64,000 nucleotides of DNA, taken from NCBI GenBank assembly GCA_030824515.1, contig JAVBXN010000032.1, positions 1-64,000 of the forward strand, in the 5' to 3' direction. Below the pieces are notes generated by a model. That model saw nothing but the letters and a program-made list of their open reading frames with translations. It was not told the DNA's origin and did no database searches. Origin of the DNA: Pelobacter sp. (lineage in GTDB: Bacteria; Desulfobacterota; Desulfuromonadia; Geobacterales; Pseudopelobacteraceae). The position numbers and the translations under genes are program-made. Positions 30,793-47,417 of the stretch are shown piece after piece (the first letter of the stretch is position 1; every line of letters starts with the position of its first letter).

Positions 30793-30815
30793 TATACCCC
30801 GAGAGTCGGTTACGA

Positions 30816-30854
30816 GAAGAGGGCCTGGCGTACAGTCCCTCTTCCTGTTTTTTT
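30816..30854 (+). terminator. Intrinsic terminator after the small exported protein gene
   Basis: GAAGAGGG (30816-30823) and CCCTCTTC (30837-30844) form a perfect 8-bp stem with a 13-nt loop. TTTTTTT follows at 30848-30854. Confidence 0.75.
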
Positions 30855-30914
30855 AGCTGTTAGTAGTCCGAATGGCGGAAACTCTCCGCAACTCCATTCA
30901 AGAAGGAATTCATC

Positions 30915-31874: not shown

Positions 31875-31901
31875 TTTCACACACCCAGATAGGAGCCGTT
31901 T

Positions 31902-32699
31902 ATGGATTTCACGAGTTTTTTTCAGTACTTGACTACAATCATCCCGTTTCTGCCCAAAATCTACAATCCGGTCGTTTATAATGCATCAGACCTGGTGCTG
32001 ATATTTTTCTGGTTTGTCGCGGCTGTTATCAGCTTTTATTTCAGTTATGGAAATGCCCGGCTCTGGACCAGCGTCTCGATCGGTTTCTTCCTGATCTTCT
32101 GGGGACAGGCCTACCTGCTGAACCCCTATGCCTCCAGCTATTTCAGGGTAACCGCCGTGCATACCATCATCGGGGCGGTTTCCATCCTGCTGATCAGCCA
32201 CGGCTTCCAGGAATACTTCCTGTTTACAAAAACCCTGGATATCACCGGTTCAAAGAGAACCATCTATCTGGCCACCATAGGCGCCATTGTTTTGGGAATT
32301 ATATTCGTTTCACTCAATCCCAAGCCCAGCCTGTTCGTGCTCAGAAACTACCGTATGGCGGAAAATACAGTGTGGCTGTTCCTGTCCATAGTTAACATTT
32401 TTGTAGTGTTAAAAATCTACCACGAGATAAAAGGATCTCCCATTGCCAACGGCATACTTTCCTTTGTTCTGGTATTTTTCTTCATCGTTATCTGGAAGGG
32501 CTCGGAACTCTATCTGCAACTGTATCAGTGGGATCCTGCCTGGCAAACATTGGTGGAGGAATTTGACTTTAACATCCAATCCGAGGGCATTGACGGCGCC
32601 ATGGTCAAGATTGCTACAACCATGAGCTCCGCCGGCGCAATGCTTTCAGGTTTATCGGTGGTCGGCACCTTCGCCTACCTTTTCAAGCTGGTTCGCTAG
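31902..32699 (+). CDS. Multi-pass membrane protein of unknown function (about seven TM)
   Basis: 265 residues, TAGGAG before the ATG. Hydrophobic segments lie near 27-47, 53-72, 82-103, 117-138, 153-172, 180-200 and 235-260. Several conserved-looking polar or aromatic residues sit in them (KGSELYLQLYQW). The last segment has a Gly/Ser/Ala face (SSAGAMLSGLSVVGTF). I do not recognise the family. The layout resembles a membrane sensor, and its partner upstream has a PATAN-like duplication. A strong bidirectional terminator follows 22 bp after the stop. Confidence 0.65.
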   Translation: MDFTSFFQYLTTIIPFLPKIYNPVVYNASDLVLIFFWFVAAVISFYFSYGNARLWTSVSIGFFLIFWGQAYLLNPYASSYFRVTAVHTIIGAVSILLISHGFQEYFLFTKTLDITGSKRTIYLATIGAIVLGIIFVSLNPKPSLFVLRNYRMAENTVWLFLSIVNIFVVLKIYHEIKGSPIANGILSFVLVFFFIVIWKGSELYLQLYQWDPAWQTLVEEFDFNIQSEGIDGAMVKIATTMSSAGAMLSGLSVVGTFAYLFKLVR

Positions 32700-32720
32700 C
32701 AAGACCTCTCCAGCAGCTGT

Positions 32721-32764
32721 AACATCAAAGGGGGAAACGGTTGTCCGTTTCCCCCTTTGATGTT
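32721..32764. terminator. Long bidirectional terminator between convergent genes
   Basis: A perfect 20-bp stem (32721-32740 with 32745-32764) around TTGT. The inner part is GGGGGAAACGG/CCGTTTCCCCC. It lies between the plus-strand membrane protein gene and the minus-strand peptide-binding protein gene and can end both transcripts. Confidence 0.85.
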
Positions 32765-32816
32765 GAATGCATAACACTCATGGCAACTTCCATTACCGGT
32801 ACTGAAAGTCGGAAAG

Positions 32817-34454
32817 TCACGGCACGTAAACCTGCTCATTCTTGGGTACGAACCACTTGATCTGGTTATGTCCAATGCCGGCCGGGGCAGGTTCCACGCC
32901 TCGAATGCGGGCGCTTACCACCGGCAATGAATCGGGCACATACAGGAAGGTGTAGGGCTGCTCATCGGCCAGGATCTCCTGGATGCGGAAGTAAGCCCGC
33001 TTGCGCTTCTCGATATCGAAGGTACCGCGCCCTTCCACCAGCAGTCGATCCACCTCCGGATTTTTGTAACCGATAAAATTCAGTTCGCTCGGATTGGTCT
33101 TGCTGGAGTGCCAGATATCGTACATATCCGGGTCTTGCGATATGCCCCAAGCCAGCATCACCACCTCGAAATTGCCCTTGTTTATGAACTCCTTGAGAAA
33201 TGCTGCCCACTCCACGATGCGGATCCTGACGTCGATGCCGACCTGCCTCAGGCGCTGCTGCACGATCTGGGCGGTCATCAGGCGCTGCTGGTTGCCCTGG
33301 TTGGTCAGGATCGTGAATTTGAACGGTTTGCCGTCCTTTACCAGGATTCCTTCGCTGTTTTTATCCTTCCAGCCGGCCTCTGCCAACAGTTCGGCAGCAT
33401 GCTTCGGATCATAGGCGATATCCTTCACATTCGGATTATAGGCCCAGCGCCCCGGAACGATCGGGCCGTACGCCTTCTGTCCCATGCCGAACAGCACCCC
33501 CTGGATCAGCTCGTCCTTGTTGATCGCGGCGGTCATCGCCTGGCGGATGCGCTTGTCGCCAAACAGCGGATGACGCAGGTTGTAACCCATGTAGAGATAA
33601 CCTGATGAGGGATAACGGTATTTGTTGAACAGGGATGTAAAGCTACGTCCGGAAGTCTGGCGAGCGTACTGCACCGGGGTCAGCCCCATCAGGTCGATCG
33701 CGCCGGATTTCAGCTCCATGTACATCGTGGAGGTATCGGGAATGATGCGATAGATGTAACGGTCGATATATGGCCGACCTTCAAAATATTCAGGATTGGC
33801 TTCCAGCACTATTTTCTGTCCCGCCACCCACTCTTTGAAACGGTAGGGACCGGTGCCGACCGGCTTGCGTGCCAGGGGACTCTTGGTGATGTCCTGCCCC
33901 TCCAACAGGTGGGCCGGCAGGATGTTGGTCGCCCACGAGGCCAGGGCCGGCGCGAAGGGCGTGGCATAAACCACCCGGATGGTATGGTCGTCAGGAGCCG
34001 AGATGCTCTTGACCTGTTTGAAATCCTCGGCGTAGGCAGTGGGGGTTTTGGGATCAATGATGACGCGGTAGGTGTAAAGCACATCCCTGGCGGTGAAAGG
34101 CGCACCGTCGTGCCATTTGACACCGCGCCGCAGATGAAATGTTATTGTCAGGCCGTCGGGTGATATATCGAACGATTCGGCCAGGTCACCGGTGATCTTC
34201 AGGTTCTTGTCGTATTTGACCAGGCCATTGTAGATCTGGCCGGCCACGGCATGGGAAGAGGAATCCGAGGCCAGCACCGGGATCAGGGTCGAGGCCTCAC
34301 CGATAGTGCCCTCGACCAGGGAATCGCCGGTGACCGGTGTTGCGGATTCAACGCGTTTGGTTATGGGTTGGCGAGTCTCGGAACTACTGCAGGCAGTCAG
34401 GCAAAGGCAGCACAAAAAAAGAAACAGCAGGCATCTGCCCGTTGAGGCATTCAT
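32817..34454 (-). CDS. Peptide ABC transporter substrate-binding lipoprotein, OppA/DppA family
   Basis: 545 residues. A lipoprotein signal with lipobox LTAC (Cys near 22) is followed by the SBP_bac_5 fold. Family marks: YNGLVKYDKNLKITGDLAESFDISPDGLTITFHLRRGVKWHDGAPFTA (split over ~75-125), PVGTGPYRF and IRQAMTAAINK. It collects peptides or related substrates for the OppBC permease. Its start overlaps the end of the TPR lipoprotein gene by 4 bp, so the two are coupled; the permeases are 3 kb further on. An alternative ligand (nickel, sugars, bile acids) is possible within the family. Confidence 0.92.
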   Translation of the reverse strand: MNASTGRCLLFLFLCCLCLTACSSSETRQPITKRVESATPVTGDSLVEGTIGEASTLIPVLASDSSSHAVAGQIYNGLVKYDKNLKITGDLAESFDISPDGLTITFHLRRGVKWHDGAPFTARDVLYTYRVIIDPKTPTAYAEDFKQVKSISAPDDHTIRVVYATPFAPALASWATNILPAHLLEGQDITKSPLARKPVGTGPYRFKEWVAGQKIVLEANPEYFEGRPYIDRYIYRIIPDTSTMYMELKSGAIDLMGLTPVQYARQTSGRSFTSLFNKYRYPSSGYLYMGYNLRHPLFGDKRIRQAMTAAINKDELIQGVLFGMGQKAYGPIVPGRWAYNPNVKDIAYDPKHAAELLAEAGWKDKNSEGILVKDGKPFKFTILTNQGNQQRLMTAQIVQQRLRQVGIDVRIRIVEWAAFLKEFINKGNFEVVMLAWGISQDPDMYDIWHSSKTNPSELNFIGYKNPEVDRLLVEGRGTFDIEKRKRAYFRIQEILADEQPYTFLYVPDSLPVVSARIRGVEPAPAGIGHNQIKWFVPKNEQVYVP

Positions 34455-36157
34455 TTTTCACCATGCTCCCCTTTGAACTTGCGAATCTTTTCAGCCAGCT
34501 CCTTGCGGTCAGGGTCGATTTCCAATGCCTTGCGGTACTGTTTGAGAGCCTTCCTGAATTCACGCCGGGCGGCATAGGCGTCCCCGAGATGTTCGGCAAT
34601 GGTGGAATCGTCGTTAACCAGGCTGAAGGCATCCTCCAACAGCCGGACCGCTTCATCGTAACGCTTGAGCTTGAAATTCACCCATCCGTAGCTGTCCAGT
34701 ATGAAGGCATCATTGGGACGTATCTCAACCGCCAGCTGAATATATTTGAGCGCTTCCTCCAGGTTGATGCCCATTTCGGCATATGAATACCCAAGGTAGT
34801 TGAGCGCTTGCGCATCCCGTGGGTTGAGCGTGAGCACCTTCTTCATCCGATCGATGGATTCCGCGCGTTTGCCAAGTTTGTCCAGCAACACCCCGATACG
34901 GAACTGGTAGCGCGACTCCTTGGGGAATTTGTGTTCATTTTCAAAAAGAAAGGCCAGACTGCCGTCAACATTACCGATGGATTCATACAGTGCGGCCAGG
35001 TTCAGGTATAACTCAACATGTCCCGTATTGGTGGCGATGGCTTCCTTGAGTATTTCAATGGCCTGGTCATTTTCGCCCTTTTCCTTGAGAATGAATGCGA
35101 TATGGCCGACAGCCTCCGGATACGGAGCTACATCAGCTGGAATTTTTTTAAACTCGTCATAGGCCTTGTCCAACTCCCCTTTTTCCTCATATGCGATGCC
35201 GAGGTAAAGCCGGATATGGTGGGCTGCGGAGTCTTTTTCCAGAATATCGCCGAAAACGGCAATTGCCTCATCAAACTGTTCCAGTTCCAGGTGAACCAGT
35301 CCGATCTTGCGCAAGGTTTCCTGACCGCCAAGACCAGATTTTACGGCATTTTTCAGGTGTTCGAGCGCCTCCGGGAAACGACGCTGCTGAATCAGCAGTT
35401 GAATCAAGCGCTGCAGCACCGCGCCCCTGGTCTCATCCCGGCCGAGCTGGGCACGATAGCTCTCAATGGCCTGGGGGTAATCACCCATGGACTCATAGGT
35501 GGCAGCCATGTCAATTGCAGCCTGATCGAATTCCGGGCGCAGCTCAAGCGTTTTTTTGAAGTACCCCAGAGCGTCACGATACAGTTTCATCTGGCTATAG
35601 GTTCTTCCCAGATAATAATAGCCCAGGACAGAATCAGGGTTCACTTTTATCAGGGCCTTGAGCGTTGCCACGGTTTCCTCATACTCGAACAGCCTCGTCA
35701 GCGAAAGTGCCAGATGCAGGTAGGCATCTTCCTTGGAGGGGTCCAGTTTGACCGCCTTGCGCAAATAATCGGCGGCCTCCCAATCCTTGCCGGCCGATGA
35801 CATCAGAATGCCGGCGATGACATAGGGCGGACGATAGTCGGGATCGAGCTTGATCGCCTTCTCGATGAATTCGAGAGCTTCAGGCACCTGCCCGATTTTC
35901 AGTTTGATTTCCGCGACTTCGGCATGCAGCATCGCTGAACCCGGATCAAGTTCAATAGCCTCGCGCAACAAGCTCAATGCGGACGGATAATCACCGTCGT
36001 GGGAAGCGAGCCTGGCGCGGGAATACAGGTACAGTGAGCGGGAATGACTGTCGAATGATTTATGGATGACGGAAGAGTTGTCATCGGGATGAGGCATACT
36101 GGAGGCGCAGGAAGCCAGCAGCAGGCAGGACAGGAGTATGATCGGGCGCAACGACAT
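34451..36157 (-). CDS. TPR-repeat lipoprotein
   Basis: 568 residues from the ATG at 36157. This start gives a lipobox LASC (Cys ~17) right after a short hydrophobic stretch and has GGAATG about 9 nt upstream. A further ATG at 36172 is less likely. At least a dozen tetratricopeptide repeats follow (for example YYLGRTYSQMKLYRDALGYFKK and LGYSYAEMGINLEEALKYIQ). It should sit on the periplasmic face of a membrane and scaffold protein assemblies. The 4-bp overlap with the peptide-binding lipoprotein gene suggests co-expression, but no functional tie is known. Confidence 0.88.
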   Translation of the reverse strand: MSLRPIILLSCLLLASCASSMPHPDDNSSVIHKSFDSHSRSLYLYSRARLASHDGDYPSALSLLREAIELDPGSAMLHAEVAEIKLKIGQVPEALEFIEKAIKLDPDYRPPYVIAGILMSSAGKDWEAADYLRKAVKLDPSKEDAYLHLALSLTRLFEYEETVATLKALIKVNPDSVLGYYYLGRTYSQMKLYRDALGYFKKTLELRPEFDQAAIDMAATYESMGDYPQAIESYRAQLGRDETRGAVLQRLIQLLIQQRRFPEALEHLKNAVKSGLGGQETLRKIGLVHLELEQFDEAIAVFGDILEKDSAAHHIRLYLGIAYEEKGELDKAYDEFKKIPADVAPYPEAVGHIAFILKEKGENDQAIEILKEAIATNTGHVELYLNLAALYESIGNVDGSLAFLFENEHKFPKESRYQFRIGVLLDKLGKRAESIDRMKKVLTLNPRDAQALNYLGYSYAEMGINLEEALKYIQLAVEIRPNDAFILDSYGWVNFKLKRYDEAVRLLEDAFSLVNDDSTIAEHLGDAYAARREFRKALKQYRKALEIDPDRKELAEKIRKFKGEHGEK

Positions 36158-36283
36158 TTCGAAGCATTCCATTTCTGAGTAAATTGGTTTCGAAAACTAA
36201 CATGAATCGTTATCGTGGTCAAACGATAATCAAGATACCTGACCGCTTGCGGACAGGCCGGTTTGATGTTACTCTTCACATGA

Positions 36284-37861
36284 ATGCGAGCCGACACAAT
36301 GAAGCCAACCACACTGAAATCATTAATGATTCCTGCAAACTACCCGGTTCCGACAAGCAAGGTCGAACTGACACAGACACACGTATCATGGATTTTCCTG
36401 ACCGACTGCCATGCTTTCAAAATTAAAAAACCGGTTGATTTCGGTTTTCTGGATTTTTCCACGCTCGAAAAGCGCCATTTTTACTGCAACGAAGAGCTGC
36501 GTCTCAACCGTCGACTTTGTCCCGACATCTACGAAGGGGTTATCGAACTCCATGCGGACGGCAACGGTGCGTCGTTTAACGGCAGTGGGCCGATACTGGA
36601 CTATGCCGTGATGATGAAACGGCTCCCGGCTGAGCGCATGCTGGACAGACTGATTGAAACCGATAGCGTGACAACGGCGATGATCAAAAGGATTGCTGGC
36701 GTTATAGCCGAATTCCATGCCGGAATCACTTCCTCGCGGTACATTTCCGATTTTGGAACTCTTGACAGAATCATGGACAACTGGAACGAGAACTTCGAAC
36801 AGGTGGTGAGTTATGCAACCAGCACTCTTCCGTCAGGCGAGCTGGAAGCAATACGTTCATGGGTTGAAGGATTTGCCGGATCCAACGAGACCCTCTTCGC
36901 CCGCAGGGTGGAACAGGGCTATATTCGCGAATGCGATGGCGACCTGCACCTTGAAAACATCTGCCTGGTTGATGATAAAGTATATATATTCGACTGTATC
37001 GAATTTAACGAACGCTTTCGTTTTTGTGACACCGCCGCCGATATTGCCTTTTTGCTGATGGACCTTGACTTTCACGGTCGCAGTGACCTGTCAACACTGG
37101 CTTTGAAAACCTACCTGGAGTTGTCTGGTGACGTTGAACTGGAAAAACTTATCAATTTTTACAAGACTTACCGAGCATTTATTCGCGGAAAAGTTGAGAG
37201 TTTCCTTCTGAACGACGAGACAATTGATCCAAGCATGAAGAAAGTTGCAAAAGAACGTGCCATACGCTACTTCCGGCTTGCCAGGGGCTACTGCGAAAGA
37301 AGCAGATTGCGCCCGACCCTTTTCATAACCTGTGGAACCATGGGTTGCGGCAAAAGCAAGCTGGCAGAGCAACTGGCATTCGAACTGGGAATTCCCGTTT
37401 ATAACTCCGACACAATCCGCAAATCCGGTTCAGGGAAAAAATCGGGTTTATCGGTTCATGAACGATATGGACAGGGGTTGTACGACAAAGCGGTCACCGA
37501 GGATGTTTATGCACAATTGAAGCGGCTTGCTGGAAATGAACTTTACGCAAACCGCTCGGTCCTGATCGACGCCAGCTTCAAAAGAGCCTCTGACCGCTCT
37601 TCACTAGCGGCTTTGGCGGTCAGACATGGCGCTGATTTTGTGATCCTCTCGATAACCTGCGATGAAGAGGAACAGAAACGTAGACTGATGCGACGTTCCG
37701 AACGCGGAGAATCCGTTTCAGACGGAAGAATCGAACTTCTAGGGCAACAGCAGGCAGAATTCGAACCTCCCGGACTGGCCGAAGGCAGAATAATCACCCT
37801 CGATTCGATGAGTTCCACCGAAAGTCTTGCAAACAGGATTTATGAGGAACTGAGCCAATGA
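36284..37861 (+). CDS. Phosphotransferase-like/P-loop kinase fusion protein
   Basis: 525 residues, two domains. Residues ~40-340 resemble a COG2187 aminoglycoside-phosphotransferase-like kinase: GYIRECDGDLHLENI supplies the catalytic Asp (D220) and Asn, and FDCIEFNERFRFCDTAADIAFL the Mg-binding Asp. Residues ~345-525 are a COG0645-like P-loop kinase with Walker A GTMGCGKS (351-358) and an Arg-rich lid (RRLMRRSERGES). The fusion is known in environmental bacteria; substrates are unknown. No clear ribosome-binding site is seen, so the start (36284 or 36299) is uncertain. It overlaps the next gene by 4 bp, placing it in the symporter-phosphatase operon. Confidence 0.82.
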   Translation: MRADTMKPTTLKSLMIPANYPVPTSKVELTQTHVSWIFLTDCHAFKIKKPVDFGFLDFSTLEKRHFYCNEELRLNRRLCPDIYEGVIELHADGNGASFNGSGPILDYAVMMKRLPAERMLDRLIETDSVTTAMIKRIAGVIAEFHAGITSSRYISDFGTLDRIMDNWNENFEQVVSYATSTLPSGELEAIRSWVEGFAGSNETLFARRVEQGYIRECDGDLHLENICLVDDKVYIFDCIEFNERFRFCDTAADIAFLLMDLDFHGRSDLSTLALKTYLELSGDVELEKLINFYKTYRAFIRGKVESFLLNDETIDPSMKKVAKERAIRYFRLARGYCERSRLRPTLFITCGTMGCGKSKLAEQLAFELGIPVYNSDTIRKSGSGKKSGLSVHERYGQGLYDKAVTEDVYAQLKRLAGNELYANRSVLIDASFKRASDRSSLAALAVRHGADFVILSITCDEEEQKRRLMRRSERGESVSDGRIELLGQQQAEFEPPGLAEGRIITLDSMSSTESLANRIYEELSQ

Positions 37862-38115
37862 TCAAGCGGTTATTTTCCAGAGTGATGCATAGATTACAGC
37901 TGCGGGAATCGTGGATAATATTCTTTGTCCTGGGAATAATAATGATGACCTTTCCGTTCCTGCGCATCTTCAACAAACCGGTGACACTGTTCGGTTTTCC
38001 ATTGATGCTGCTCTATCTGACAATCGGATGGGCTTTTTCGATCTTTGTCATCTACCTTTTCATGCGTTCGTTTTCCTCACACAACAAGAACCCCGACGAG
38101 AAAAAAGACGAATGA
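37858..38115 (+). CDS. Small two-TM protein, probable symporter accessory subunit
   Basis: 85 residues with two membrane segments (~19-36 and 48-69), a basic N-terminus and a charged tail (KNPDEKKDE). It overlaps the genes on both sides by 4 bp (ATGA both times), so translation of all three is coupled. Some Na+/solute symporters are encoded with a short two-TM partner of this size; position and topology fit that, though I cannot name a family. Its role is inferred from context. Confidence 0.75.
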   Translation: MIKRLFSRVMHRLQLRESWIIFFVLGIIMMTFPFLRIFNKPVTLFGFPLMLLYLTIGWAFSIFVIYLFMRSFSSHNKNPDEKKDE

Positions 38116-41100
38116 ATACCGGAATCGTCTACGCAACATCCATATCCGCACTCTATACCGCGATTATCTTTCTGGTTGCATGGTATGCCCACCATCGCAA
38201 GGAAATCGGCCGCAGCATCGTCTCCAATCCCATCGTATATTCCCTGTCAATCGCGGTATACTGCACATCCTGGACATTTTACGGCAGTGTCGGCAAGGCT
38301 TCCACCACCGGGATAGATTTTTTGATGATCTATCTCGGACCGTCGCTGGCGGCTTTTTCCTGGCTTTTCCTGCTTCGTCGCATCGTCAAGATCAGTAAAG
38401 AGAACAACATCACTTCGATTGCCGACTTCATCAGCCTGCGTTACGGGAAATCACTCTGGCTCGGAGCGCTGGTGACGATTATCGCGGTTCTCGGCATCAT
38501 GCCCTATATAGCCCTGCAAATTAAGGCGGTTTCCCACAGTTTTTTCCTTGTTAGCGGGTTGCCGGCCGACGACATCCCGCTAACAAGGCTCGGATCAGGT
38601 GCGAAACTGCCAACCGGCCTTATTCTGGCAGTGATTCTGTCGATCTTCAGTATCATTTTCGGTGCTCGCAAACTGGTTTCATCCGATCGTCATGAAGGTC
38701 TGGTCGCAGCCGTTGCATTCGAGTCCCTGATCAAACTGATCAGTCTTCTGGGTGTCGGTATATTTGTAACCTACTTCCTGTTTGATGGCGTTACGGATAT
38801 TTTCACGCGTTTCAAAGCATTTGATCCTGCTGCATTTGACCGGCTTTTTACTTTAGACACCTCAAGCAGAAACTCGGACAGTATTCCCACCTTCACGATG
38901 TTGTTCCTCTCCATGGGGGCGATCATGCTTCTGCCCCGACAGTTCCACGTGATGGTCATAGAGAATTCCGATGAAAAACATATATCAACCGCAATGTGGC
39001 TCTTTCCAACCTACATGTTTCTTATCAACCTGTTTGTGATGCCGATTGCGCTTGGAGGTATCCTGACTACCGGCAGCAATCAAGGCGCCGACTTTTTCGT
39101 AATCAGCATACCTCTGATCACCGGCAACAGTGCCATAGCCCAACTGGCATTTCTGGGAGGCGTTTCCGCCGCTGCCGGCATGGTGATGGTTGAATCGGTG
39201 GCCATATCGACCATGCTCCTGAACCACATCTTCATGCCGATCATTGTTCGGTGTACACCGCAAGTCTGGTTTCCGTTACTGCTGATTAATCTCAAACGGT
39301 TCGGCATATTTCTGGTCATAATGATGGGGTACTATTACCACCGCATTGTAGGCGACTCTTACATGCTGGTAAATATGGGGCTGATTTCATTTTCGGCAGC
39401 GGCCCAATTCATGCCGGCCATGCTGGGTGGTCTCTACTGGAGGCGCGGCAACAAGGCCGGAGCAATCGGCGGGATTCTGCTCGGGTTCATGATCTGGTTT
39501 TACACGCTGTTGCTGCCATCATTCAGCAAATCCGGCTGGCTGCCAACAGACCTGCTGACGGAAGGTCCGTTCGGGATTACCCTTCTCAGGCCCACCGCAC
39601 TGTTCGGTCTTTCGGGGATGGATCTCTGGAGTCATTCTCTGTTCTGGAGCATGCTTTTCAACATCAGCACCTATATAACATGCTCGATAATGCTGAAGCA
39701 GACCGACAAGGAACGGGAACAGGTATCCAAGTACATAGCCGTCTTCGAGCGGGAACGCGGTTATCGCCAGACTGAACAGAAACGACTTTCAAAACCGGTA
39801 ACAAAAGCACAATTCGTTACACTGATGGCCAAGTTTATCGGAGAAGCTGAAGCTCAGAACGCCATCAGCCTGTATGGGGACAGTCGCGAACTGAATTCGA
39901 ATGGAGCCGTATCGGAATTCGAACTTCCGAATCTGAAACGGCATACCGAAAAAACGCTGGCGGGTTCCGTCGGAGCCGCTGCAGCCGGCGCGATTGTGGA
40001 CAGCTTTCTGTCCGACATGGGTTCCCGCATGGAATCGGTCTATGACATTTACAGTACGGTAAGGGCATCTCTCGACCAGAGCCGTGAATCACTGTTTGTA
40101 AGGCTGAAAGCTTCCGAAATCATCAATCGCACACTCGATCTGCAAATTATCATGGATGACCTGCTGAATCTGCTGTTGAAGGAATTCAAACTCGATGCAG
40201 CCATCATACAACTCAAAAATGATAATGGTACGGTTTCGGTCACAAGCTATCAGGGAGCAAACCGGCGACTGATAAACGAGAATCACTGGTATACCGAAAG
40301 TACACCTTATATCGACATGGTCTACCATGATAAAAAAGCTCACTTCACGAACGACGCCAGACTTGCCAGTAATACACTTTCACTGGAACGCACTCTGGCG
40401 GAGGGCATTATTTCGTTTGCACACATTCCGATCTCAAGGGAAGGTGAACAGGCGGTCGGAATACTCTCGGTATTTTCCAAGTCGATCGCCGGCCTGTTCA
40501 CCCAGGAGTTCATCAACCTGCTGTCCAGCCTCTGCGGACAGCTTGCACAGGCGATAACCATCGTTCATGAAATGCATGCAAAAGACCGTGAACGTGACCA
40601 GAAGGAAAGGGCCCTGCTGCAACATGCCCGTGTACTGCGTGACATGGAAATAGCGCAGCAGATACAGATTTCACTTCTTCCTGACAGCGCGCCGGAAATA
40701 TTCGGGTGTGAGTTGGCGGGAAGATGCATCTCCGCCGCCCATGTCGGCGGTGACTACTATGACTTCTTTCTTCGAAATGAAAATACTGTCGACCTGATGA
40801 TTGCCGATGTCTCCGGTCACAGTGTTGGTGCCGCGCTGATCATGGCCGAAGTCAGAACTCTTCTGAGAGCACAGGTAAATTCGGCTCATAGCGCCAGCGC
40901 CATACTGAACATTCTCAACGGCCAGTTGCATGATGATTTGACCAGGGCCGAATTATTCATATCCATGTTTTATGCAAAATACAATTCCGCAAGCGGCAAA
41001 CTGTCCTACTCCAATGCCGGGCACAACCACCCCATCATCCATCGCTCCGGAACAAGCGCCTGCATTGAACTCGACACAGAAGGGCTCATTATCGGCGTTA

Positions 41101-41360
41101 AAACATCGGTTATCTTTGAAGAGCGTAACATTGAACTTGTCAGCGGTGATGTGCTACTGTTGTATACAGATGGATTGACGGAAGCATTTAACAGCGAAGG
41201 TGAAATGTTTGGAATCGAAAATGTTTGCGCTCACCTTGGGAGTGTGGCACATTTATCGGCCAGAGAGATCATTGATTCGATCTTTGACGCGGCGTCTGCT
41301 TTTACCGGATCCCGGACGTTTCAGGATGACATCTCTCTGGTAGTATTAAAGATAAATTGA
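38112..41360 (+). CDS. Na+/solute symporter fused to STAC-like, GAF and PP2C (SpoIIE) phosphatase domains
   Basis: 1082 residues. The ATG at 38112 overlaps the upstream stop; a longer frame from 37911 is a shadow. Residues ~1-540 form a 13-TM SSSF/PutP-type transporter (NPIVYSLSIAVYCTSWTFYGSVG, ITSIADFISLRYGKS). Residues ~555-635 resemble the STAC domain of CbrA-type sensors (KTLAGSVGAAAAGAIVDS). A GAF domain follows at ~660-815, then a coiled linker (RDMEIAQQIQISLLPD). The C-terminal PP2C/SpoIIE phosphatase has its metal-binding acidic motifs: VGGDYYDFF (D881), DVSGHS (D899) and FQDDIS (D1072, D1073). Transporter-linked sensors usually end in a histidine kinase, so the phosphatase end is unusual. 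A STAS protein and an anti-sigma ATPase follow directly. Confidence 0.9.
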   Translation: MNTGIVYATSISALYTAIIFLVAWYAHHRKEIGRSIVSNPIVYSLSIAVYCTSWTFYGSVGKASTTGIDFLMIYLGPSLAAFSWLFLLRRIVKISKENNITSIADFISLRYGKSLWLGALVTIIAVLGIMPYIALQIKAVSHSFFLVSGLPADDIPLTRLGSGAKLPTGLILAVILSIFSIIFGARKLVSSDRHEGLVAAVAFESLIKLISLLGVGIFVTYFLFDGVTDIFTRFKAFDPAAFDRLFTLDTSSRNSDSIPTFTMLFLSMGAIMLLPRQFHVMVIENSDEKHISTAMWLFPTYMFLINLFVMPIALGGILTTGSNQGADFFVISIPLITGNSAIAQLAFLGGVSAAAGMVMVESVAISTMLLNHIFMPIIVRCTPQVWFPLLLINLKRFGIFLVIMMGYYYHRIVGDSYMLVNMGLISFSAAAQFMPAMLGGLYWRRGNKAGAIGGILLGFMIWFYTLLLPSFSKSGWLPTDLLTEGPFGITLLRPTALFGLSGMDLWSHSLFWSMLFNISTYITCSIMLKQTDKEREQVSKYIAVFERERGYRQTEQKRLSKPVTKAQFVTLMAKFIGEAEAQNAISLYGDSRELNSNGAVSEFELPNLKRHTEKTLAGSVGAAAAGAIVDSFLSDMGSRMESVYDIYSTVRASLDQSRESLFVRLKASEIINRTLDLQIIMDDLLNLLLKEFKLDAAIIQLKNDNGTVSVTSYQGANRRLINENHWYTESTPYIDMVYHDKKAHFTNDARLASNTLSLERTLAEGIISFAHIPISREGEQAVGILSVFSKSIAGLFTQEFINLLSSLCGQLAQAITIVHEMHAKDRERDQKERALLQHARVLRDMEIAQQIQISLLPDSAPEIFGCELAGRCISAAHVGGDYYDFFLRNENTVDLMIADVSGHSVGAALIMAEVRTLLRAQVNSAHSASAILNILNGQLHDDLTRAELFISMFYAKYNSASGKLSYSNAGHNHPIIHRSGTSACIELDTEGLIIGVKTSVIFEERNIELVSGDVLLLYTDGLTEAFNSEGEMFGIENVCAHLGSVAHLSAREIIDSIFDAASAFTGSRTFQDDISLVVLKIN

Positions 41361-41374
41361 GATAAGGAGCTGTC

Positions 41375-41710
41375 ATGAATCTTAAAACCGAGTCTAACAA
41401 AGGAATAGTTGTAGTTTTCGTAAGGGAAGAACGTCTTGATGCAAATAACTCGGAAGAGTTGAAATCTGAATTGAATCACCTTTTTGAAACCGGCACCAAA
41501 GACGTGATAGTCGATCTGAAAGAAGTAAGATTCATCGACAGTTCCGGTTTGGGAGTACTGGTCTCGGGGTTCAAAAACGCCTCTACACGCCAGGGGACAA
41601 TTAAGCTGTCCGGATTGCAGACCCAGGTAAAATCGATGTTTGAACTAACCCGCCTCCATCGGGTTTTCGATATATATGCAACCGTTGACGATGCTTTGGA
41701 GAATCGCTGA
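41375..41710 (+). CDS. STAS-domain anti-anti-sigma factor
   Basis: 111 residues, AAGGAG before the ATG, 14 bp after the phosphatase gene. Matches the SpoIIAA/RsbV type: VFVREERLDANNSEELKSEL, then VIVDLKEVRFIDSSGLGVLVSG. The phosphorylatable serine lies in DSSGLG (S56 or S57). In partner switching the unphosphorylated STAS protein captures the anti-sigma ATPase; the PP2C phosphatase upstream should dephosphorylate it and the ATPase downstream should phosphorylate it. All three parts are adjacent. Confidence 0.92.
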   Translation: MNLKTESNKGIVVVFVREERLDANNSEELKSELNHLFETGTKDVIVDLKEVRFIDSSGLGVLVSGFKNASTRQGTIKLSGLQTQVKSMFELTRLHRVFDIYATVDDALENR

Positions 41711-41735
41711 AGATATGATCCGGTGCGAGGCTGCT

Positions 41736-42170
41736 ATGAAAAAAAAGATAGCCCTTGAAATAACCATTCCTAACCAGACCCGCTATCTGGGGTTGATAGG
41801 CAAGATCGGCGAAAACATGGCCAAGGAATTCGATGTCACAGTCTGTGACCGTGAGATTCTTGCCAGCCAGTTGAATATTGTACTTACCGAATCAATAGTA
41901 AATGCAATAAAACACGCCAATGCAACCGACCCGAACAAAGAAGTTCATGTCCGAATCAACGTAAATGACTGTGATTTATCAATTCGTGTCTATGACACCG
42001 GCAGCGGCTTTGATCTTAATAAGATACCGAACCCGAGCTTTGATTCCGGCAGTCTGAATGAAAAAGGGCGCGGAATATACATAATCCGATCAATGATGGA
42101 CTCGGTGGAGTATCGCCGAACAAACGGGGGTAATGTACTGGAAATGAAAAAAAAACTTGGTCAGGGATGA
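41736..42170 (+). CDS. RsbW/SpoIIAB-type anti-sigma ATPase (serine kinase)
   Basis: 144 residues from the ATG at 41736, chosen for the GAGG 5 nt upstream; ATG 41715 is possible. GHKL fold: N box TESIVNAIKHAN, G1 box DTGSGFD, G2 box GRGIYIIRSMMD. It should bind a sigma factor or another output protein and phosphorylate the STAS partner. No sigma-factor gene is adjacent, so the output is encoded elsewhere or is not a sigma factor. It is 25 bp after the STAS gene and closes the operon. Confidence 0.9.
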   Translation: MKKKIALEITIPNQTRYLGLIGKIGENMAKEFDVTVCDREILASQLNIVLTESIVNAIKHANATDPNKEVHVRINVNDCDLSIRVYDTGSGFDLNKIPNPSFDSGSLNEKGRGIYIIRSMMDSVEYRRTNGGNVLEMKKKLGQG

Positions 42171-42273
42171 CTGGCAATAAAGCATTCATGACAGATTGAT
42201 TTAGCCTGAATCATGAAATGTGTTGTCCGTTAACCAACTTGCATTGAACCAAATTGTCTGATACGTTGGCAAG

Positions 42274-42612
42274 ATGAGTATGTTTGCAAAACATAGTGGA
42301 TGGATTCGTTTCATCATTCTGATGATCCCGTTATTTCTGGCTTTTTCCGGAATACGGGTACCTGATCTGACCCGTCCGCACAAACCCAAACCCATGCGGC
42401 GCGCTGTTCTGGACAAAACCCCAGTACAGACCGTACTAAAATCCATTGTAAAGATTGACATAGACCCGATAATCGCAACGCTCCCCTCCCCGCTTATCCC
42501 GGTCACCTTTGAGTACGCCCCGGAAGCACACCCGCATCATTCTTCCGTACCACTATTGTCGCTAAGCCCATTACCTCCAAGAGCGCCCCCTATATCAATC
42601 TCTCTCGCATAG
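42274..42612 (+). CDS. Putative small exported proline-rich protein
   Basis: 112 residues. The N-terminus looks like a signal or membrane segment (WIRFIILMIPLFLAFSGI, ~10-27), followed by a basic stretch and a Pro-rich C-terminus (SLSPLPPRAPPISISLA). The start is preceded only by a weak GGCAAG. It lies in the 538-bp gap between the anti-sigma gene and the Pal-like gene. No family is recognised, and it may be spurious. Confidence 0.35.
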   Translation: MSMFAKHSGWIRFIILMIPLFLAFSGIRVPDLTRPHKPKPMRRAVLDKTPVQTVLKSIVKIDIDPIIATLPSPLIPVTFEYAPEAHPHHSSVPLLSLSPLPPRAPPISISLA

Positions 42613-42708
42613 CCTTATCCAACACATATCCGGAATTCACCTGTTTCGGATCGGACGGCGCAGTTTGCCTGTTTTCATCTAAAATCAAATATTTCGAGGA
42701 GACCTCCC

Positions 42709-43302
42709 ATGCAGAAGCGCATATCGTTTCATGCCGTTTACGTATTTATTATTGCCGTATTCATCACTGCTGGCTGTGCAAAACAGGAAGTTGTCAAGAA
42801 GGACGAAGGGATTGCCCCCACTCAGTCACTAAAGCAGGACGATTCAAAAAAAGCGACTGCAACCGCTTCCTCACTAACCAACGCTGCACCGGCAGTACCG
42901 ACAAAAGCTCCCGACCAGCCGCTTCCTGTTCAACAGACGCAAAAAACGTCTACAACAGAACAGATGCAATCGGCTTTGAACAAGATCTACTTTGATTTCG
43001 ACTCCGCCGACGTATCCGAATCCGCACGTGACACTTTATCAAAAAACGCGACCGAAATGATGAAGGATAGATCGGTAAAATTCCGCATCGAAGGTAACTG
43101 CGACGAGCGCGGTTCGACGGAATACAACCTGGCGCTGGGTGAGCGCCGCGCCAAAGCTGCCCGGAAATACCTAGTCACCATGGGAGTCAAACCCGATCGC
43201 CTTTCCGTCATCAGCTACGGTGAAGAAAAACCGGCTGTTCAGGGAAGCGACGAGTCTGCCTGGGCTAAAAATCGTCGCGATGAGTTTGTTATTTTAAAAT
43301 AG
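42709..43302 (+). CDS. pal: Pal/OmpA-family peptidoglycan-associated lipoprotein
   Basis: 197 residues, GAGGAGACC before the ATG. A lipoprotein signal with lipobox ITAGC (Cys ~23) is followed by a disordered Lys/Thr/Pro-rich stretch (~25-85) and the OmpA-like peptidoglycan-binding domain. The latter has IYFDFDSADV, IEGNCDERGSTEYNLALGERRAKAARKYL and a C-terminal RRDEFVI. Pal links the outer membrane to peptidoglycan and to TolB. No tolB or tolQRA lies here, so it could be a Pal paralogue. A terminator follows. Confidence 0.9.
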   Translation: MQKRISFHAVYVFIIAVFITAGCAKQEVVKKDEGIAPTQSLKQDDSKKATATASSLTNAAPAVPTKAPDQPLPVQQTQKTSTTEQMQSALNKIYFDFDSADVSESARDTLSKNATEMMKDRSVKFRIEGNCDERGSTEYNLALGERRAKAARKYLVTMGVKPDRLSVISYGEEKPAVQGSDESAWAKNRRDEFVILK

Positions 43303-43336
43303 CGGTTTCTCGTATCTACATGACTAATGTCGCAAC

Positions 43337-43384
43337 ATCAGCAAAGCTTCTCCCTCCCTTGCCGGCAGGGGAAGCTTTGCTGAT
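43337..43384. terminator. Long hairpin after the Pal-like gene
   Basis: A perfect 14-bp stem (43337-43350 with 43371-43384), extended inside by CCCT/AGGG pairing. No U-run follows on the plus strand, so it is terminator-like but may act as a stabiliser. Confidence 0.6.
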
Positions 43385-43444
43385 TGTAAAATGTATATTT
43401 GAACGAGAAGATAATTGAACAATATTAAAATGGAACATACAAAT

Positions 43445-44032
43445 ATGAGACTGCTTTTGATAATTGTGACAATTACTGTATTCGCCGCGCTGCGCACGAA
43501 CTGCCATGCCGGCTGTAACTGCGATGACTGGGTGAACAGGGACGGATATTGCGTTGATTATGTTAAAACAAAGATACCCTCCTTTCCGGTTCCAAATGAC
43601 GTGACAGAAATCACGACACTCAAAAACAGGGAAGTCCCGGAAGTCTCGGAAGGCGATGTCGCCATATTCGACCTCGGAAGATATTGGCACGTTGCGTACG
43701 TAGAGAAAGTCCACCTGGACAAGCAGGGCAATGCGACGGCAATCGACGTCAGCGAGATGAATTTTGGCGGAGATTTGTCATATCAGGAATATAAAGGCAG
43801 ATGGAGCCCCAAAAACGAAAATGAATGGAAACGAGCTCTCTGTTGCGGGGTTACGGACAAATACAGCCTGACAAGCTCACGCAAGAATGTTGCGCTATCG
43901 ACTGTCACCCAGATCTGGTCACCGGCTGAGGAACAGCCTGAAGGCAACGGTATAAGCCGTATCAACTCTTTCGTCAACAAGGTCAGGGAAGTTCTGAATC
44001 GTTTCATGCCATACACGTGGAGAGAACTATGA
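43445..44032 (+). CDS. Exported CHAP-domain protein (putative peptidoglycan amidase)
   Basis: About 195 residues. Starts at 43415 (TTG), 43430 and 43445 are possible; 43445 places the signal peptide (MRLLLIIVTITVFAAL) first. The mature protein has the CHAP Cys in DGYCVDYVKTKIP and the His in GDVAIFDLGRYWHVAYVE, the two catalytic residues. A cysteine-rich N-terminus (CNCDDW) precedes it. CHAP enzymes cleave peptidoglycan cross-links. The stop overlaps the start of a TPR protein gene (ATGA), so the two are likely partners, as with amidases and their scaffolds. Confidence 0.82.
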   Translation: MRLLLIIVTITVFAALRTNCHAGCNCDDWVNRDGYCVDYVKTKIPSFPVPNDVTEITTLKNREVPEVSEGDVAIFDLGRYWHVAYVEKVHLDKQGNATAIDVSEMNFGGDLSYQEYKGRWSPKNENEWKRALCCGVTDKYSLTSSRKNVALSTVTQIWSPAEEQPEGNGISRINSFVNKVREVLNRFMPYTWREL

Positions 44033-45924
44033 AACATCCATACACCGTCCTTTTACGGACAGTTGCGTTGTTCGCCGTTCTCGCATTCTGTTGCGGCTTC
44101 AGCTGGGGATTGGGTAAATCTGATACCTGCCAGGAAGCGCGCACGACCCTCAATACGCTTTCAACCGTCACAGACCCCGTTAAGCGCACGAAATTGGAAG
44201 AGTCCATACTCAAGTCATGTCCAAATGGCGGCGTCGGAGTATTCATCAAAGCCCTGCAGGCGGAAAGAGCCTCAAAACAAGATGCCGCAATATCCCTTTA
44301 CCGGGAGGCGCTGGAGAAAGACGGCACTATCGCAGAGGCCCACGGCAACCTTGGACTGATTCTACATGATCGCGGCCTGGACGAGGAAGCATCGGTCGAG
44401 CTGACCCAAGGATTGATGGGGCATCCCGATCCACGCTATCACCTGGCCATGGCGCAAATCCTGTGTGGCGGCACAAACCCGTCGCTGGCGGTTTTTCATT
44501 TTAGTGAAGCATTGAAGGCATATGCGGATGACGCGTCAATCCATGAAGGACTCGCTAAAGCGTATCTTCAGCTGGGGCAATACAAAAAGGCGGGAGAAGA
44601 GTTTCTCAAACTGAAAAGACTAAGACCCAAGGAAGTCAGGTTTCAGTTGGGGCTTGCGGATACCTGGCGCAAAGCCGGCCGTCTGGACCGGGCGATTGAG
44701 GAGCTGCGAGCATACATTGGCGCAAATCCATCGGACAAGCAAGGGCACCGTTTGCTGGCGGAAGTGCTGATGGAAAACGGTGACCGGGAAACAGCACGCA
44801 GGGAATATCTTCTGGCGGGTGTGGATGTAACCATAGACCCCGAAGACTTTGCCCGCAAAGGCGACCAGTACATGAAAGCCCGCGAATACGGTCAGGCTAT
44901 CGGCGCTTACCAGACTGCGCTCAAGGGGCGTCCGGCCTGGACGGAAATACAGTATAACCTCGGCAAGGCCCAGATGGCCGCCGGTCGCGATGACGATGCC
45001 ATGGTGACATTTACGGCGCTGATCAAGTCCGGCAGCAAGGATGGCGCACTTTTCCACGATGTGGGCTTACTTTATGAACGTATCGGGCAACTTGACCAAG
45101 CCATAGACGCATATCGCCTGGCAATTGCCAATGAACCGGATAATGTCAACGCCCATCGCCGTCTGGCAGAGATTTTCACCTGGCGTGGCAGCTTCACCGA
45201 AGCGGCGCAGCAGTACCGGGAATTGATCCGTCTCAGGGGAGACAATCCCCTGTATCACCTGAATCTGGCCCGCGTCTATGATCGGAGCAAAGATCAGAAG
45301 CGAGCTGCCAGCGAGTATGAAACGGCGGTCAAACTGGACCCGGATAACCTCGAGGGGCACCGCGAACTGGCAAGAATTTATCTGCTCAGGGCACAGACAG
45401 CCAAGTCCGAACACCATTACCGGGAAGTTCTCAGACTTAACAATGAGGATGAGGCGGCCAGGAATGCGCTGATCACCATGTATGTAAAGCAGAAACGTTA
45501 CGATGACCTGACAACGTTTGTAAAAGAATGGTTGGACAAAGCTCCCGACGATCCGCAACGTCACTATCGCCTGGGAATAGTTTACGAATTCAAGAAGGAA
45601 TACAACCTGGCCGTCAGCGAATACAAAAAAGCAATCGAGTTACAACCGGATAACGCCAGAATGTTGTTCGCGCTGGGACGGACTTATATGAAAACCGGAC
45701 TTCTATCCGAATCACGGGAGATGCTGGCGGCGGCAAAAAAAGCGGACCCCACTCTTGCCGGTCCGCAACTGCTTCTCAGCAGTCTTGATAACAGCTCTCA
45801 ACCCAGTAAAAAACAACTGCGCAATTCAGGCAAAACATCCTCTGAAAAGCAGATTGTTCGCAACAAAAAGAACCGGGCCGCCAAGAAAGCGGTTGTACGC
45901 AAGAAAAGTTCAAAAAAGCATTGA
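44029..45924 (+). CDS. Exported TPR-repeat protein with basic C-terminal tail
   Basis: 631 residues. The ATG at 44029 overlaps the CHAP gene stop by 4 bp, with GGAGAG upstream. A signal peptide (~1-27, LLRTVALFAVLAFCCGF) precedes about a dozen TPRs (for example HGNLGLILHDRGLDEEASVELTQG and HYRLGIVYEFKKEYNLAVSEYKKAIEL). The last ~30 residues are strongly basic (KKNRAAKKAVVRKKSSKKH), which could bind anionic cell-wall polymers or lipid. It probably scaffolds an envelope complex with the CHAP enzyme. Confidence 0.88.
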   Translation: MKHPYTVLLRTVALFAVLAFCCGFSWGLGKSDTCQEARTTLNTLSTVTDPVKRTKLEESILKSCPNGGVGVFIKALQAERASKQDAAISLYREALEKDGTIAEAHGNLGLILHDRGLDEEASVELTQGLMGHPDPRYHLAMAQILCGGTNPSLAVFHFSEALKAYADDASIHEGLAKAYLQLGQYKKAGEEFLKLKRLRPKEVRFQLGLADTWRKAGRLDRAIEELRAYIGANPSDKQGHRLLAEVLMENGDRETARREYLLAGVDVTIDPEDFARKGDQYMKAREYGQAIGAYQTALKGRPAWTEIQYNLGKAQMAAGRDDDAMVTFTALIKSGSKDGALFHDVGLLYERIGQLDQAIDAYRLAIANEPDNVNAHRRLAEIFTWRGSFTEAAQQYRELIRLRGDNPLYHLNLARVYDRSKDQKRAASEYETAVKLDPDNLEGHRELARIYLLRAQTAKSEHHYREVLRLNNEDEAARNALITMYVKQKRYDDLTTFVKEWLDKAPDDPQRHYRLGIVYEFKKEYNLAVSEYKKAIELQPDNARMLFALGRTYMKTGLLSESREMLAAAKKADPTLAGPQLLLSSLDNSSQPSKKQLRNSGKTSSEKQIVRNKKNRAAKKAVVRKKSSKKH

Positions 45925-45937
45925 GCTGCAAATAAAA

Positions 45938-45967
45938 CCGGGGAGCAGGCGGTGGCCTGCTCCCCGG
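45938..45967. terminator. Terminator between the TPR gene and selC
   Basis: A perfect 12-bp GC-rich stem (45938-45949 with 45956-45967) around CGGTGG. On the minus strand it is followed by TTTTATT, so it ends the selC transcript 11 nt after the CCA; it may also end the plus-strand TPR transcript. Confidence 0.75.
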
Positions 45968-45978
45968 AACAATATTAT

Positions 45979-46076
45979 TGGCGGAAGAACATGAGAATCG
46001 AACTCACCAGGGAGATTTCTCATCCCCCTCACCGGTTTTGAAGACCGGGCGGCCCACCAGCGACCGTTGTTCTTCC
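45979..46076 (-). tRNA. selC: tRNA-Sec (selenocysteine, anticodon TCA)
   Basis: 98 nt including an encoded CCA. Acceptor stem of 8 bp (GGAAGAAC with GTTCTTCC), then discriminator G and CCA. Anticodon loop CTTCAAA between CCGGT and ACCGG, so the anticodon is TCA. T-arm of 5 bp (GTGAG/CTCAT) around TTCGATT, giving the 13-bp acceptor-T stack of tRNA-Sec. The long variable arm (GGGGGAT...ATCTCCC) also fits. This shows the organism inserts selenocysteine at UGA. selA, selB and selD are not in the window. Confidence 0.95.
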
Positions 46077-46089
46077 GTGTGACGACCTT

Positions 46090-46118
46090 TGTATACTATG
46101 CCGCTGCTGATTCCTCAA
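46090..46118 (-). promoter_or_regulatory. Sigma-70 promoter for selC
   Basis: On the minus strand TTGAGG (46118-46113) and TATACA (46095-46090), spacer 17 nt, about 13 nt before the mature tRNA 5' end. Confidence 0.6.
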
Positions 46119-46168
46119 GCAGTATTTCCGGTTCCTCCACCATCTCCGGACAGTTGAATGCAGTTACT

Positions 46169-47302
46169 TCACTTTGCGCCGGAATCGTTCACATTGGTTT
46201 CAACCGGCTTGTTTTTCAATCCCTCCAGGTATGCCGCAATTTCCTTTTTGAACAGCGACTGGGATTTGTCATATTGGACATGCAATTTCAGACCGTCCGC
46301 AGGGATGTCACTGGTAAATACCTTGAGACTGTTTTCCAGGTAATCGGCACATTCCAGTTCCCTGGTATTGTCTTTTTTTACCAATAGCTTGCCGCAGACA
46401 CCCTTGAACATATTCATCAACTCGGATAACTGGTCAGATTTAATCGAAGTTGATTCCATGTGCAGGCTTTTGAAAAGATAGGGATGATCGTCTCCGCCGA
46501 CGTACAGCAGGTCCGATTTGAAATTAACATCGTTCATCACAAAGACTATTTTGAGCTTGTACTCGTAGCGATTCCAGGTAGGTTTTGCCGAACGGCCAAG
46601 CGCGTACCCGGCCAGCGCTTCATCATAATTATCGTTATTCGCAAGCATTTCTATTGCATTGGGAGCAGCGACAGACTTGCCGTCAACAAAGATATACCTT
46701 AAATCGTTATGCCAGCTAATGCTTGAAACGCCCGGCATTTTCCTGATTTTATCGACAGCGGCAGCAACAGTGTCATCTAACCGCAGATTAGCGACGATCG
46801 GCAGCAGTTCATTGTAGACCGGCTTACTGTCATGATTGAACTTCTCCTGCTCCGCTTTTTTCTGCATTTCGATGCGCTGGTTCTCGGCGTTCTGCTTTAC
46901 GCTCGGCATGTTCGGCAGTATTTCCGAAACATACCTGTATATCGCAGGATTATCCAGTTTCTCGGAGTTGATGATAATTGCCGTAATTACCGCAACATTG
47001 GTATTCTCATGCTTTGCATACCCGAATTGGACCTTCTCGACACTCTTCTTCCGTGTGGATTTATCCTTGAACGTAGACGTGTGGGCCCATTCCTGTCCGG
47101 CTTTTGACCAGACACCCGGCTTTAGCCCCTCGGCGGCAAACTGGTAGACCGTTACGCCGGACTTGCTCAGTCCGGAATTTGCATCGGATTCCAGGTACAG
47201 GTTCTCGTTAAGGAAAGCGGACGGCGGAGATGCGGCGATAGCCGCAAAGGGCGATGCCGCAACCATCAGCAGAAGGAACATCGTTTTTCTGATTAATACC
47301 AT
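46169..47302 (-). CDS. Exported protein of unknown function
   Basis: 377 residues, GAGGAG before the ATG at 47302. A signal peptide spans ~1-24 (MFLLLMVAASPFAAIAA). The mature part is mixed alpha/beta with a Lys/Gln/Glu-rich central helix (SVKQNAENQRIEMQKKAEQEKF) and no Trp/Cys-rich motif except one Cys pair near the end (FKGVCGKLLV...LECADY). No known family is recognised. It lies between selC and the 948-residue secreted protein gene and is probably expressed on its own. The stop is TGA; read-through as selenocysteine was considered and rejected. Confidence 0.75.
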   Translation of the reverse strand: MVLIRKTMFLLLMVAASPFAAIAASPPSAFLNENLYLESDANSGLSKSGVTVYQFAAEGLKPGVWSKAGQEWAHTSTFKDKSTRKKSVEKVQFGYAKHENTNVAVITAIIINSEKLDNPAIYRYVSEILPNMPSVKQNAENQRIEMQKKAEQEKFNHDSKPVYNELLPIVANLRLDDTVAAAVDKIRKMPGVSSISWHNDLRYIFVDGKSVAAPNAIEMLANNDNYDEALAGYALGRSAKPTWNRYEYKLKIVFVMNDVNFKSDLLYVGGDDHPYLFKSLHMESTSIKSDQLSELMNMFKGVCGKLLVKKDNTRELECADYLENSLKVFTSDIPADGLKLHVQYDKSQSLFKKEIAAYLEGLKNKPVETNVNDSGAK

Positions 47303-47356
47303 GCCTGTTCACTCCTCTTTGGCAACTGTCAACAACAAATCGACCGCCGTGACTCA

Positions 47357-47401
47357 ATAAAACCGCCCCCCCCACCGGTACAATGGGGGGGGCGGTTTTA
47401 T
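47357..47401 (-). terminator. Long terminator with an eight-base G/C run
   Basis: A perfect 18-bp stem (47357-47374 with 47384-47401) with an outer AT part (ATAAAACC) and an inner run of eight C paired with eight G. On the minus strand it ends in TTTTAT. It follows the 948-residue protein gene by about 16 bp. Confidence 0.8.
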
Positions 47402-47417
47402 CAGCTTATACGGGCCA

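Follow-up and report, generated by a model that had tools for sequence, protein, structure and literature searches.

We describe here a five-gene operon that probably encodes a CbrA-type transceptor whose output has become a phosphatase driving a partner switch, the latter consisting of a STAS protein and an RsbW-like ATPase. The operon lies in a stretch of 64,000 nucleotides from Pelobacter sp. (GCA_030824515.1, JAVBXN010000032.1), here referred to as the window, and all coordinates count from its first letter. On the + strand, it comprises genes for a two-domain small-molecule kinase (36299..37861), an 85-amino-acid membrane protein (37858..38115), a 1,082-amino-acid SLC5-STAC-GAF-linker-PP2C fusion (38112..41360), a STAS anti-anti-sigma-type protein with a DSSGLG motif (41375..41710), and an RsbW/SpoIIAB-like GHKL ATPase (41737..42170, with an alternative start at 41715). 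A preliminary description of this DNA had noted these five genes and read them as a partner switch of PP2C, STAS, and RsbW type headed by a transporter-sensor; all five were confirmed, and the reading is supported by the domains, conserved residues, gene order, and co-occurrence described below.

The fusion begins with an SLC5 transporter domain of the LeuT-type fold (residues 1-546, 38112..39749), followed by a STAC domain at about residues 550-650 (39759..40061), and thus has a CbrA-type front end. In a profile search, this part matched the CbrA structure 10ed_A in the PDB over residues 1-633 (E 1.8e-92), and the structure model places four helices at 565-635. Alignments of structure models also backed the SLC5 and PP2C assignments; 10ed was not listed by the AlphaFold structure search, and it may postdate that library. 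The pocket residues of CbrA and the lysine K196 that fills its Na2 site are described in PMC13022988. In the 10ed alignment, the pocket residues map to Y50, T52, W54, T55, F70, Y74, S267, and F427 of the fusion; T52, W54, F70, and F427 are conserved in at least 48 of 50 PP2C-type sequences, Y50 in 45, and Y74 in 46. K208 aligns with CbrA K196, and a lysine is found at this position in 57/57 sequences. The preliminary description had assumed coupling to Na+, for which an SLC5 symporter should have a Na2 site open to the ion; by homology, K208 would plug that site. Since this lysine is conserved and CbrA uptake is probably proton driven and was not stimulated by sodium (PMC7096432), proton coupling is likelier than Na+ coupling and is what we infer for the SLC5 domain.

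Directly upstream of 82 of the 84 operonic fusions lies a gene for the 85-amino-acid protein, which has two hydrophobic helices. In Pseudomonas, the hairpin CbrX is encoded just upstream of cbrA and is bound to the SLC5 domain, which is contacted by both CbrX and STAC (PMC13022988). In position, length, and its two helices, the small protein resembles CbrX, and it probably accompanies the SLC5 domain in the same way. It did not match the CbrX chain in PDB searches, either with a profile or with the single sequence. Matches of its family to DUF3311 (3/27) and DUF4212 (1/27) were weak and lend little support to a small subunit of that type, and weak matches to monocarboxylate transporter 8 were taken as chance. 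Of 17 relatives that lack PP2C, 12 have a similar small open reading frame upstream (11 of the 12 were aligned); these 17 come from L148-L165 without the truncated L150, and the 6 that were domain scanned are all histidine kinases.

The second half of the fusion starts with a GAF domain (residues 661-815, 40092..40556), identified by a domain search, which matches 2qyb with 55% identity (E 2.9e-72). This PDB entry is the solved GAF region of a "putative membrane protein" of G. sulfurreducens PCA that, by its sequence, is evidently an orthologue or paralogue of the fusion in a model species; no paper on 2QYB was found in the open-access literature. Next comes a linker (residues 816-862, 40557..40697) for which the model predicts helices at 798-832 and 836-855, with low confidence at about 825-841. 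Within the stretch of residues 816-833 (40557-40610), residues 823-833 are absent from roughly one in two of the 50 PP2C-type sequences (25-26 by column), an 11-residue difference of about three helical turns that would hold the helix in phase. This is no more than suggestive, and an analysis of linker periodicity gave no clear conclusion. Activation of such phosphatases through a helix that links the sensor to the PPM domain has been published, and an exchange of sensors between PPM phosphatases and histidine kinases through such linkers has been proposed (PMC12143880). The fusion ends in a SpoIIE/RsbU-type PP2C phosphatase domain (residues 863-1082, 40698..41357), assigned by a domain search, conserved residues, and model alignment. 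It has the PPM fold, and the metal-binding Asp residues, whose loss would have counted against the preliminary reading, are in place: D881, D899, D1020, and D1073 are all retained in 50/50 PP2C-type sequences. In the domain scan, GAF and SpoIIE alone made up the C terminus, which lacks the HisKA and HATPase_c domains of SLC5-STAC histidine kinases.

The STAS protein, found by a domain search, scores above the TIGR00377 cutoff, and its residues D55, S56, and S57 are conserved in at least 95% of 97 rows; by analogy with RsbV and SpoIIAA, we assume S56 to be the likely phospho-acceptor. The ATPase matches HATPase_c_2 (PF13581, 5e-24) and is the presumed Ser kinase acting on the STAS protein. Its residues E59 and N63 (numbered from 41715) align with E46 and N50 of SpoIIAB, which we take to be catalytic, and these two residues and both G boxes are conserved in at least 95% of 98 rows. 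The small-molecule kinase joins an APH/maltokinase-like N-terminal fold to a P-loop (AAA_33) kinase fold and is an optional member, being present in 53 of the 77 operons that have enough upstream sequence. It is also found without the switch: genomes G146 and G147 retain it alone at the locus, and three members of the window's genus that lack the switch retain it with no adjoining STAS or RsbW gene. Because it is optional and occurs without the switch, the earlier suggestion that it supplies a metabolite signal is speculation.

In the class that comprises Geobacter and similar bacteria, the fusion is found in most genomes examined. Its back half (residues 480-1082) was matched at 1e-120 in 164 of 200 class genomes (among the match ranges listed, those of G020, G022, and G045 are in pieces on split contigs), and the RsbW-like protein was matched at 1e-15 in 183 of 200. 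The back-half count replaces that of a whole-protein search at 1e-60 (181/200), which mixes in kinase-type and PP2C-only matches. An RsbW orthologue is present in 162 of the 164 genomes with the fusion back half. Within the window's genus, it occurs in 24/24 genomes with the fusion (three of these fusions being split over contigs) and in 0/10 without it, the RsbW search covering genomes at least 90% complete and thereby leaving aside three genus members; the probability of such an association by chance is 7.6e-9, a figure that ignores descent. The gene order is likewise conserved, as the preliminary description required: STAS and RsbW genes lie right downstream of 84 of 98 distinct fusions (open reading frames of >1,000 amino acids, those with identical C-terminal 1,000 residues counted once, the window included). 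Of the remaining 14, 3 have too little downstream sequence to tell, and 11 have no STAS/RsbW genes there. Among the best 80 loci of the whole-fusion search, a sample that is silent on absence elsewhere, named relatives include Geobacteraceae bacterium GWC2_55_20 (96%), Oryzomonas, Trichlorobacter, Citrifermentans, Geomonas, Geothermobacter, Pelovirga, and Malonomonas. In a sample of the phylum, the whole fusion was matched at 1e-100 in 80 of 394 genomes, 20 in the class and 60 outside it, and among the matches listed for these 60 genomes, none extends beyond residue 840, so that the PP2C domain is not reached. At 1e-18, RsbW was matched 17 times in 345 phylum genomes, in each case within the class, of which the RsbW orthologue is a marker at this threshold.

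Reduced versions of the operon exist in nature. Five of the six genomes of genus g24 encode a separate PP2C protein of 266-276 amino acids, followed by STAS and RsbW, with the kinase also present in four of these five loci; the sixth genome, G174, matched neither the fusion nor RsbW. In family f18, RsbW was matched in 9/9 genomes and the fusion in none, and the three loci that were read have the order kinase-STAS-RsbW. Since PP2C-STAS-RsbW, kinase-STAS-RsbW, and kinase-alone loci all exist, STAS-RsbW is the stable core of the system, usually activated by PP2C, whereas the transporter and the kinase are inputs that can be separated from it. Both look like accessory inputs, as some lineages run PP2C-STAS-RsbW or STAS-RsbW without a transporter.

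The relatives scanned outside the class have another output. All eight of them, out of 10 such loci (L193 and L199 were left out), carry HisKA and HATPase_c at the C terminus, preceded in five cases by a GAF domain, and nine further relatives, three in the class and six from the best-80 list, are all histidine kinases. The earlier statement that a histidine kinase is the normal output of SSSF sensors thus holds for the 17/17 relatives scanned, but the review PMC7918813 mentions SSS proteins of Actinobacteria that carry GAF, PP2C_SIG, and HATPase_c domains. In a tree of SLC5 domains (built, like that of the PP2C domains, by a quick search on every third operonic row), the PP2C-type rows group together, apart from the histidine kinase rows, with an approximate likelihood ratio (SH-aLRT) support of 84, which is below the star threshold. 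Two rows labelled histidine kinase inside the PP2C group (L116 and L144) are truncated fusions whose contigs end before PP2C; L062, L129, and L138 lack downstream sequence. The PP2C tree leaves 24 of 52 inner branches open and does not resolve whether the g24 phosphatase arose from the fusion. The simplest reading is that the output was exchanged once, close to the root of the class.

The phosphotransfer chemistry and the direction of signaling that we infer are as follows. The SLC5 domain, probably proton coupled via K208 and carrying the CbrX-like hairpin, would bind and may move a small solute, which, judged by the similarity of the pocket to that of CbrA, could be amino-acid-like. STAC and the cytosolic GAF domain would relay the state of the transporter, a cytosolic ligand, or both via the helical linker to PP2C. 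The active phosphatase would strip phosphate from Ser56 of the STAS protein, which in its unphosphorylated form would bind the RsbW-like ATPase, and the ATPase would then release its target; without a signal, the ATPase would rephosphorylate the STAS protein and hold the target again.

A number of observations weigh against this scheme. In CbrA itself, the link from substrate to output is unproven: histidine was not observed to affect the kinase (PMC7096432), and CbrX is described as dispensable for growth on histidine (PMC13022988). The pocket of the fusion differs from that of CbrA at two positions (A56 to T55 and F248 to S267), and therefore the substrate cannot be read off CbrA. The ATPase is under both NCBIfam cutoffs, reaching 49.4 of 135 bits for SpoIIAB and falling far short of the RsbW equivalog cutoff, with 53.2 of 145 bits. 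Fusion and switch also come apart. Genomes G140 and G167 matched the fusion but not RsbW; STAS/RsbW genes do not adjoin 11 fusions whose contigs extend at least 2.3 kb downstream; no phosphatase adjoins the three f18 loci; and an RsbW orthologue is present in 21 of the 36 class genomes without a fusion match at 1e-120 (among them all nine of family f18, and G068, G081, G093, G096, G103, G104, and G144), some of which may be fragmentary. On the output side, a search for sigma-70 found no match on the window's contig, and none of the conserved neighbors across loci could be read as a target.

The claim of the preliminary description that uptake directly controls dephosphorylation is therefore unproven, with the GAF domain being an equally good sensor, and a simple scheme in which uptake is the signal is disfavored by the evidence from CbrA and by the relatives that lack the transporter. 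It is conceivable, and has a good deal to be said for it, if not quite enough for us to expect it, that the SLC5 domain no longer transports and serves as a sensor or anchor, the real input being a ligand of the cytosolic GAF domain that the phosphatase follows. The GAF domain adjoins the linker, some relatives retain the switch after loss of the SLC5-STAC-GAF part, an overproduced CbrA form lacking the membrane domain still gave a response (PMC6591292), and histidine had no observed effect on CbrA activities (PMC7096432). However, the conservation of the pocket residues listed above and of K208 (50/50 PP2C-type sequences) is more than an anchor would need, and the CbrX-like small gene has been retained in nearly all operons (82/84).

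As for the target of the switch, our first guess is a sigma-70-family factor, and we would give about one chance in three to an RpoS-like one. The preliminary description had noted that no sigma factor is nearby, which agrees with the empty search of the contig; the genome has six sigma-70 region 2 matches, all on other contigs. The frequent neighbor clusters were rejected as targets; by sequence, they resemble lgt, an ATPase of the ABC-F type, a protease like those of hydrogenase maturation, and housekeeping genes (one lgt was checked by a hidden Markov model [HMM]). Co-occurrence was too weak to identify RpoS; all 50 genomes searched match because RpoD matches too, and none scores above the family cutoff. 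That the switch acts instead on a nonsigma protein, such as a diguanylate cyclase or a protein involved in chemotaxis or secretion, is nearly as probable as improbable. The lack of a sigma-70 match on the contig and of a readable target among conserved neighbors would fit with this, as would the persistence of rpoS-like genes in 7 of 10 genus members without the operon and a second RsbW paralogue near a GGDEF gene in genome G052. Unlinked targets are normal for such switches, however, and STAS/RsbW pairs of the same fold classically control sigma factors (PMC8256260). By frame length, moreover, an rpoS-like gene is found in 24/24 operon-positive genus members (as fragments in G034 and G022), and the three genus genomes with RpoD-length frames only all lack the operon, which is weak evidence against a nonsigma target and is not corrected for descent.

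Compatible with the transceptor-phosphatase scheme is a convergence of sensors on one hub, for which we see the chances as even: several related phosphatases, namely, the operonic fusion, an unlinked fusion paralogue, and a REC-PAS-PP2C protein, would act on a single STAS-RsbW pair. At 1e-8, the genome of the window contains four SpoIIE domains, compared with a single RsbW match at 1e-15. Three of these domains are alike, those of the unlinked fusion L026 and the REC-PAS-PP2C protein L081 being 57% and 42% identical, respectively, to that of the operonic fusion over PP2C (range, 42-57%); in the PP2C tree, PAS- and REC-PAS-PP2C relatives sit among the PP2C domains of the fusions. That tree is poorly resolved, though, and the same genome has seven STAS matches at 1e-5 and a second cluster with HATPase_c_2, STAS, and PP2C, so that other pairings are possible. 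A wider picture, which we consider rather unlikely as a whole, is that SLC5-STAC is not tied to histidine kinases, that one swap near the base of the class gave a phosphatase transceptor, and that the pathway is the general nutrient switch of the class, in which transporter state and other PP2C sensors feed into a single STAS-RsbW pair, with an RpoS-like sigma factor or a nonsigma target being released by that pair.

Further paralogues and neighbors were recorded. Full-length SLC5-STAC-GAF-PP2C paralogues without STAS/RsbW neighbors are present at L026 (own genome, contig C37), L055, L056, L059, L064, L072-L074, and L137. The second possible partner-switch cluster of the window's genome (L082, contig C24) encodes a dCache-HAMP-PP2C protein (677 amino acids), an NMT1-like protein, a nitroreductase, HATPase_c_2, and STAS. 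Second RsbW paralogues, 56-58% identical, occur in two genomes (L172, 6917-7357; L173, 7510-7950), that of L173 adjoining GGDEF, TANGO2, HSP20, and aldehyde ferredoxin oxidoreductase genes. In the window, a TPR gene (34451..36172, - strand) and a solute-binding-protein-like gene (32817..34454, - strand; labelled by reading the sequence, without an HMM) run divergently from the operon, and these two (32817-36172) often flank it in relatives, reduced operons included; in genus g24, the TPR gene is placed as in the window in four of the five PP2C-STAS-RsbW loci, and the contig of the fifth ends before it. An lgt-like gene (prolipoprotein diacylglyceryl transferase) is a frequent convergent neighbor downstream of RsbW, with its cluster found in 40 loci and its Pfam LGT match checked in one (L167, 6608-7426). 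About 4 kb downstream of the operon, a selenocysteine tRNA (45979-46076, - strand) was identified by ARAGORN and Rfam (RF01852), and tRNA-Sec was the sole match in an Rfam scan of 30000-48000. Promoter predictions (13 versus 8.4 in shuffled sequences; standard deviation, 2.7) and terminator predictions (4 versus 6.4) were not used.

No study of an SLC5-STAC-GAF-PP2C/STAS/RsbW operon was found in the open-access literature; SLC5-STAC proteins whose output is a histidine kinase or a diguanylate cyclase have already been published (PMC7096432). The coupling of transport and signaling in transceptors is open even for CbrA, and the variant described here gives a cleaner readout, with one phosphatase, one STAS substrate, and one kinase. 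It comes with versions dissected by nature (transporter-PP2C-STAS-RsbW, PP2C-STAS-RsbW, and STAS-RsbW), occurs widely among Geobacter and the other members of its class, cultivated strains included, and exemplifies in nature the exchange of sensors that PMC12143880 proposes for phosphatases and histidine kinases.

Compared with known systems, the fusion shares with CbrA (with CbrX) and CrbS/MxtR the SLC5-STAC front, the Na2-site lysine, most pocket residues, and a small upstream gene for a putative hairpin, but its output is GAF-PP2C rather than PAS/HisKA/HATPase_c, and it adjoins STAS and RsbW-like ATPase genes rather than a response regulator gene. With RsbU, RsbP, and SpoIIE and their RsbV-RsbW or SpoIIAA-SpoIIAB partners, it has in common the PPM/PP2C domain, the Ser site of STAS, the kinase residues of the GHKL ATPase, and a predicted helical linker ahead of the phosphatase; it differs in its sensor, a CbrA-like transporter plus GAF, and in having no linked sigma gene, and the sequences here fall below the RsbW and SpoIIAA equivalog cutoffs. 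The 2QYB entry, which holds the GAF region only, shares with the fusion the 55% identical GAF domain. The SSS-GAF-PP2C_SIG-HATPase_c proteins of Actinobacteria, compared here by their description in PMC7918813, likewise combine a transporter-like domain, GAF, and PP2C; they carry the HATPase in the same chain, whereas the operon described here encodes STAS and the ATPase as separate genes.

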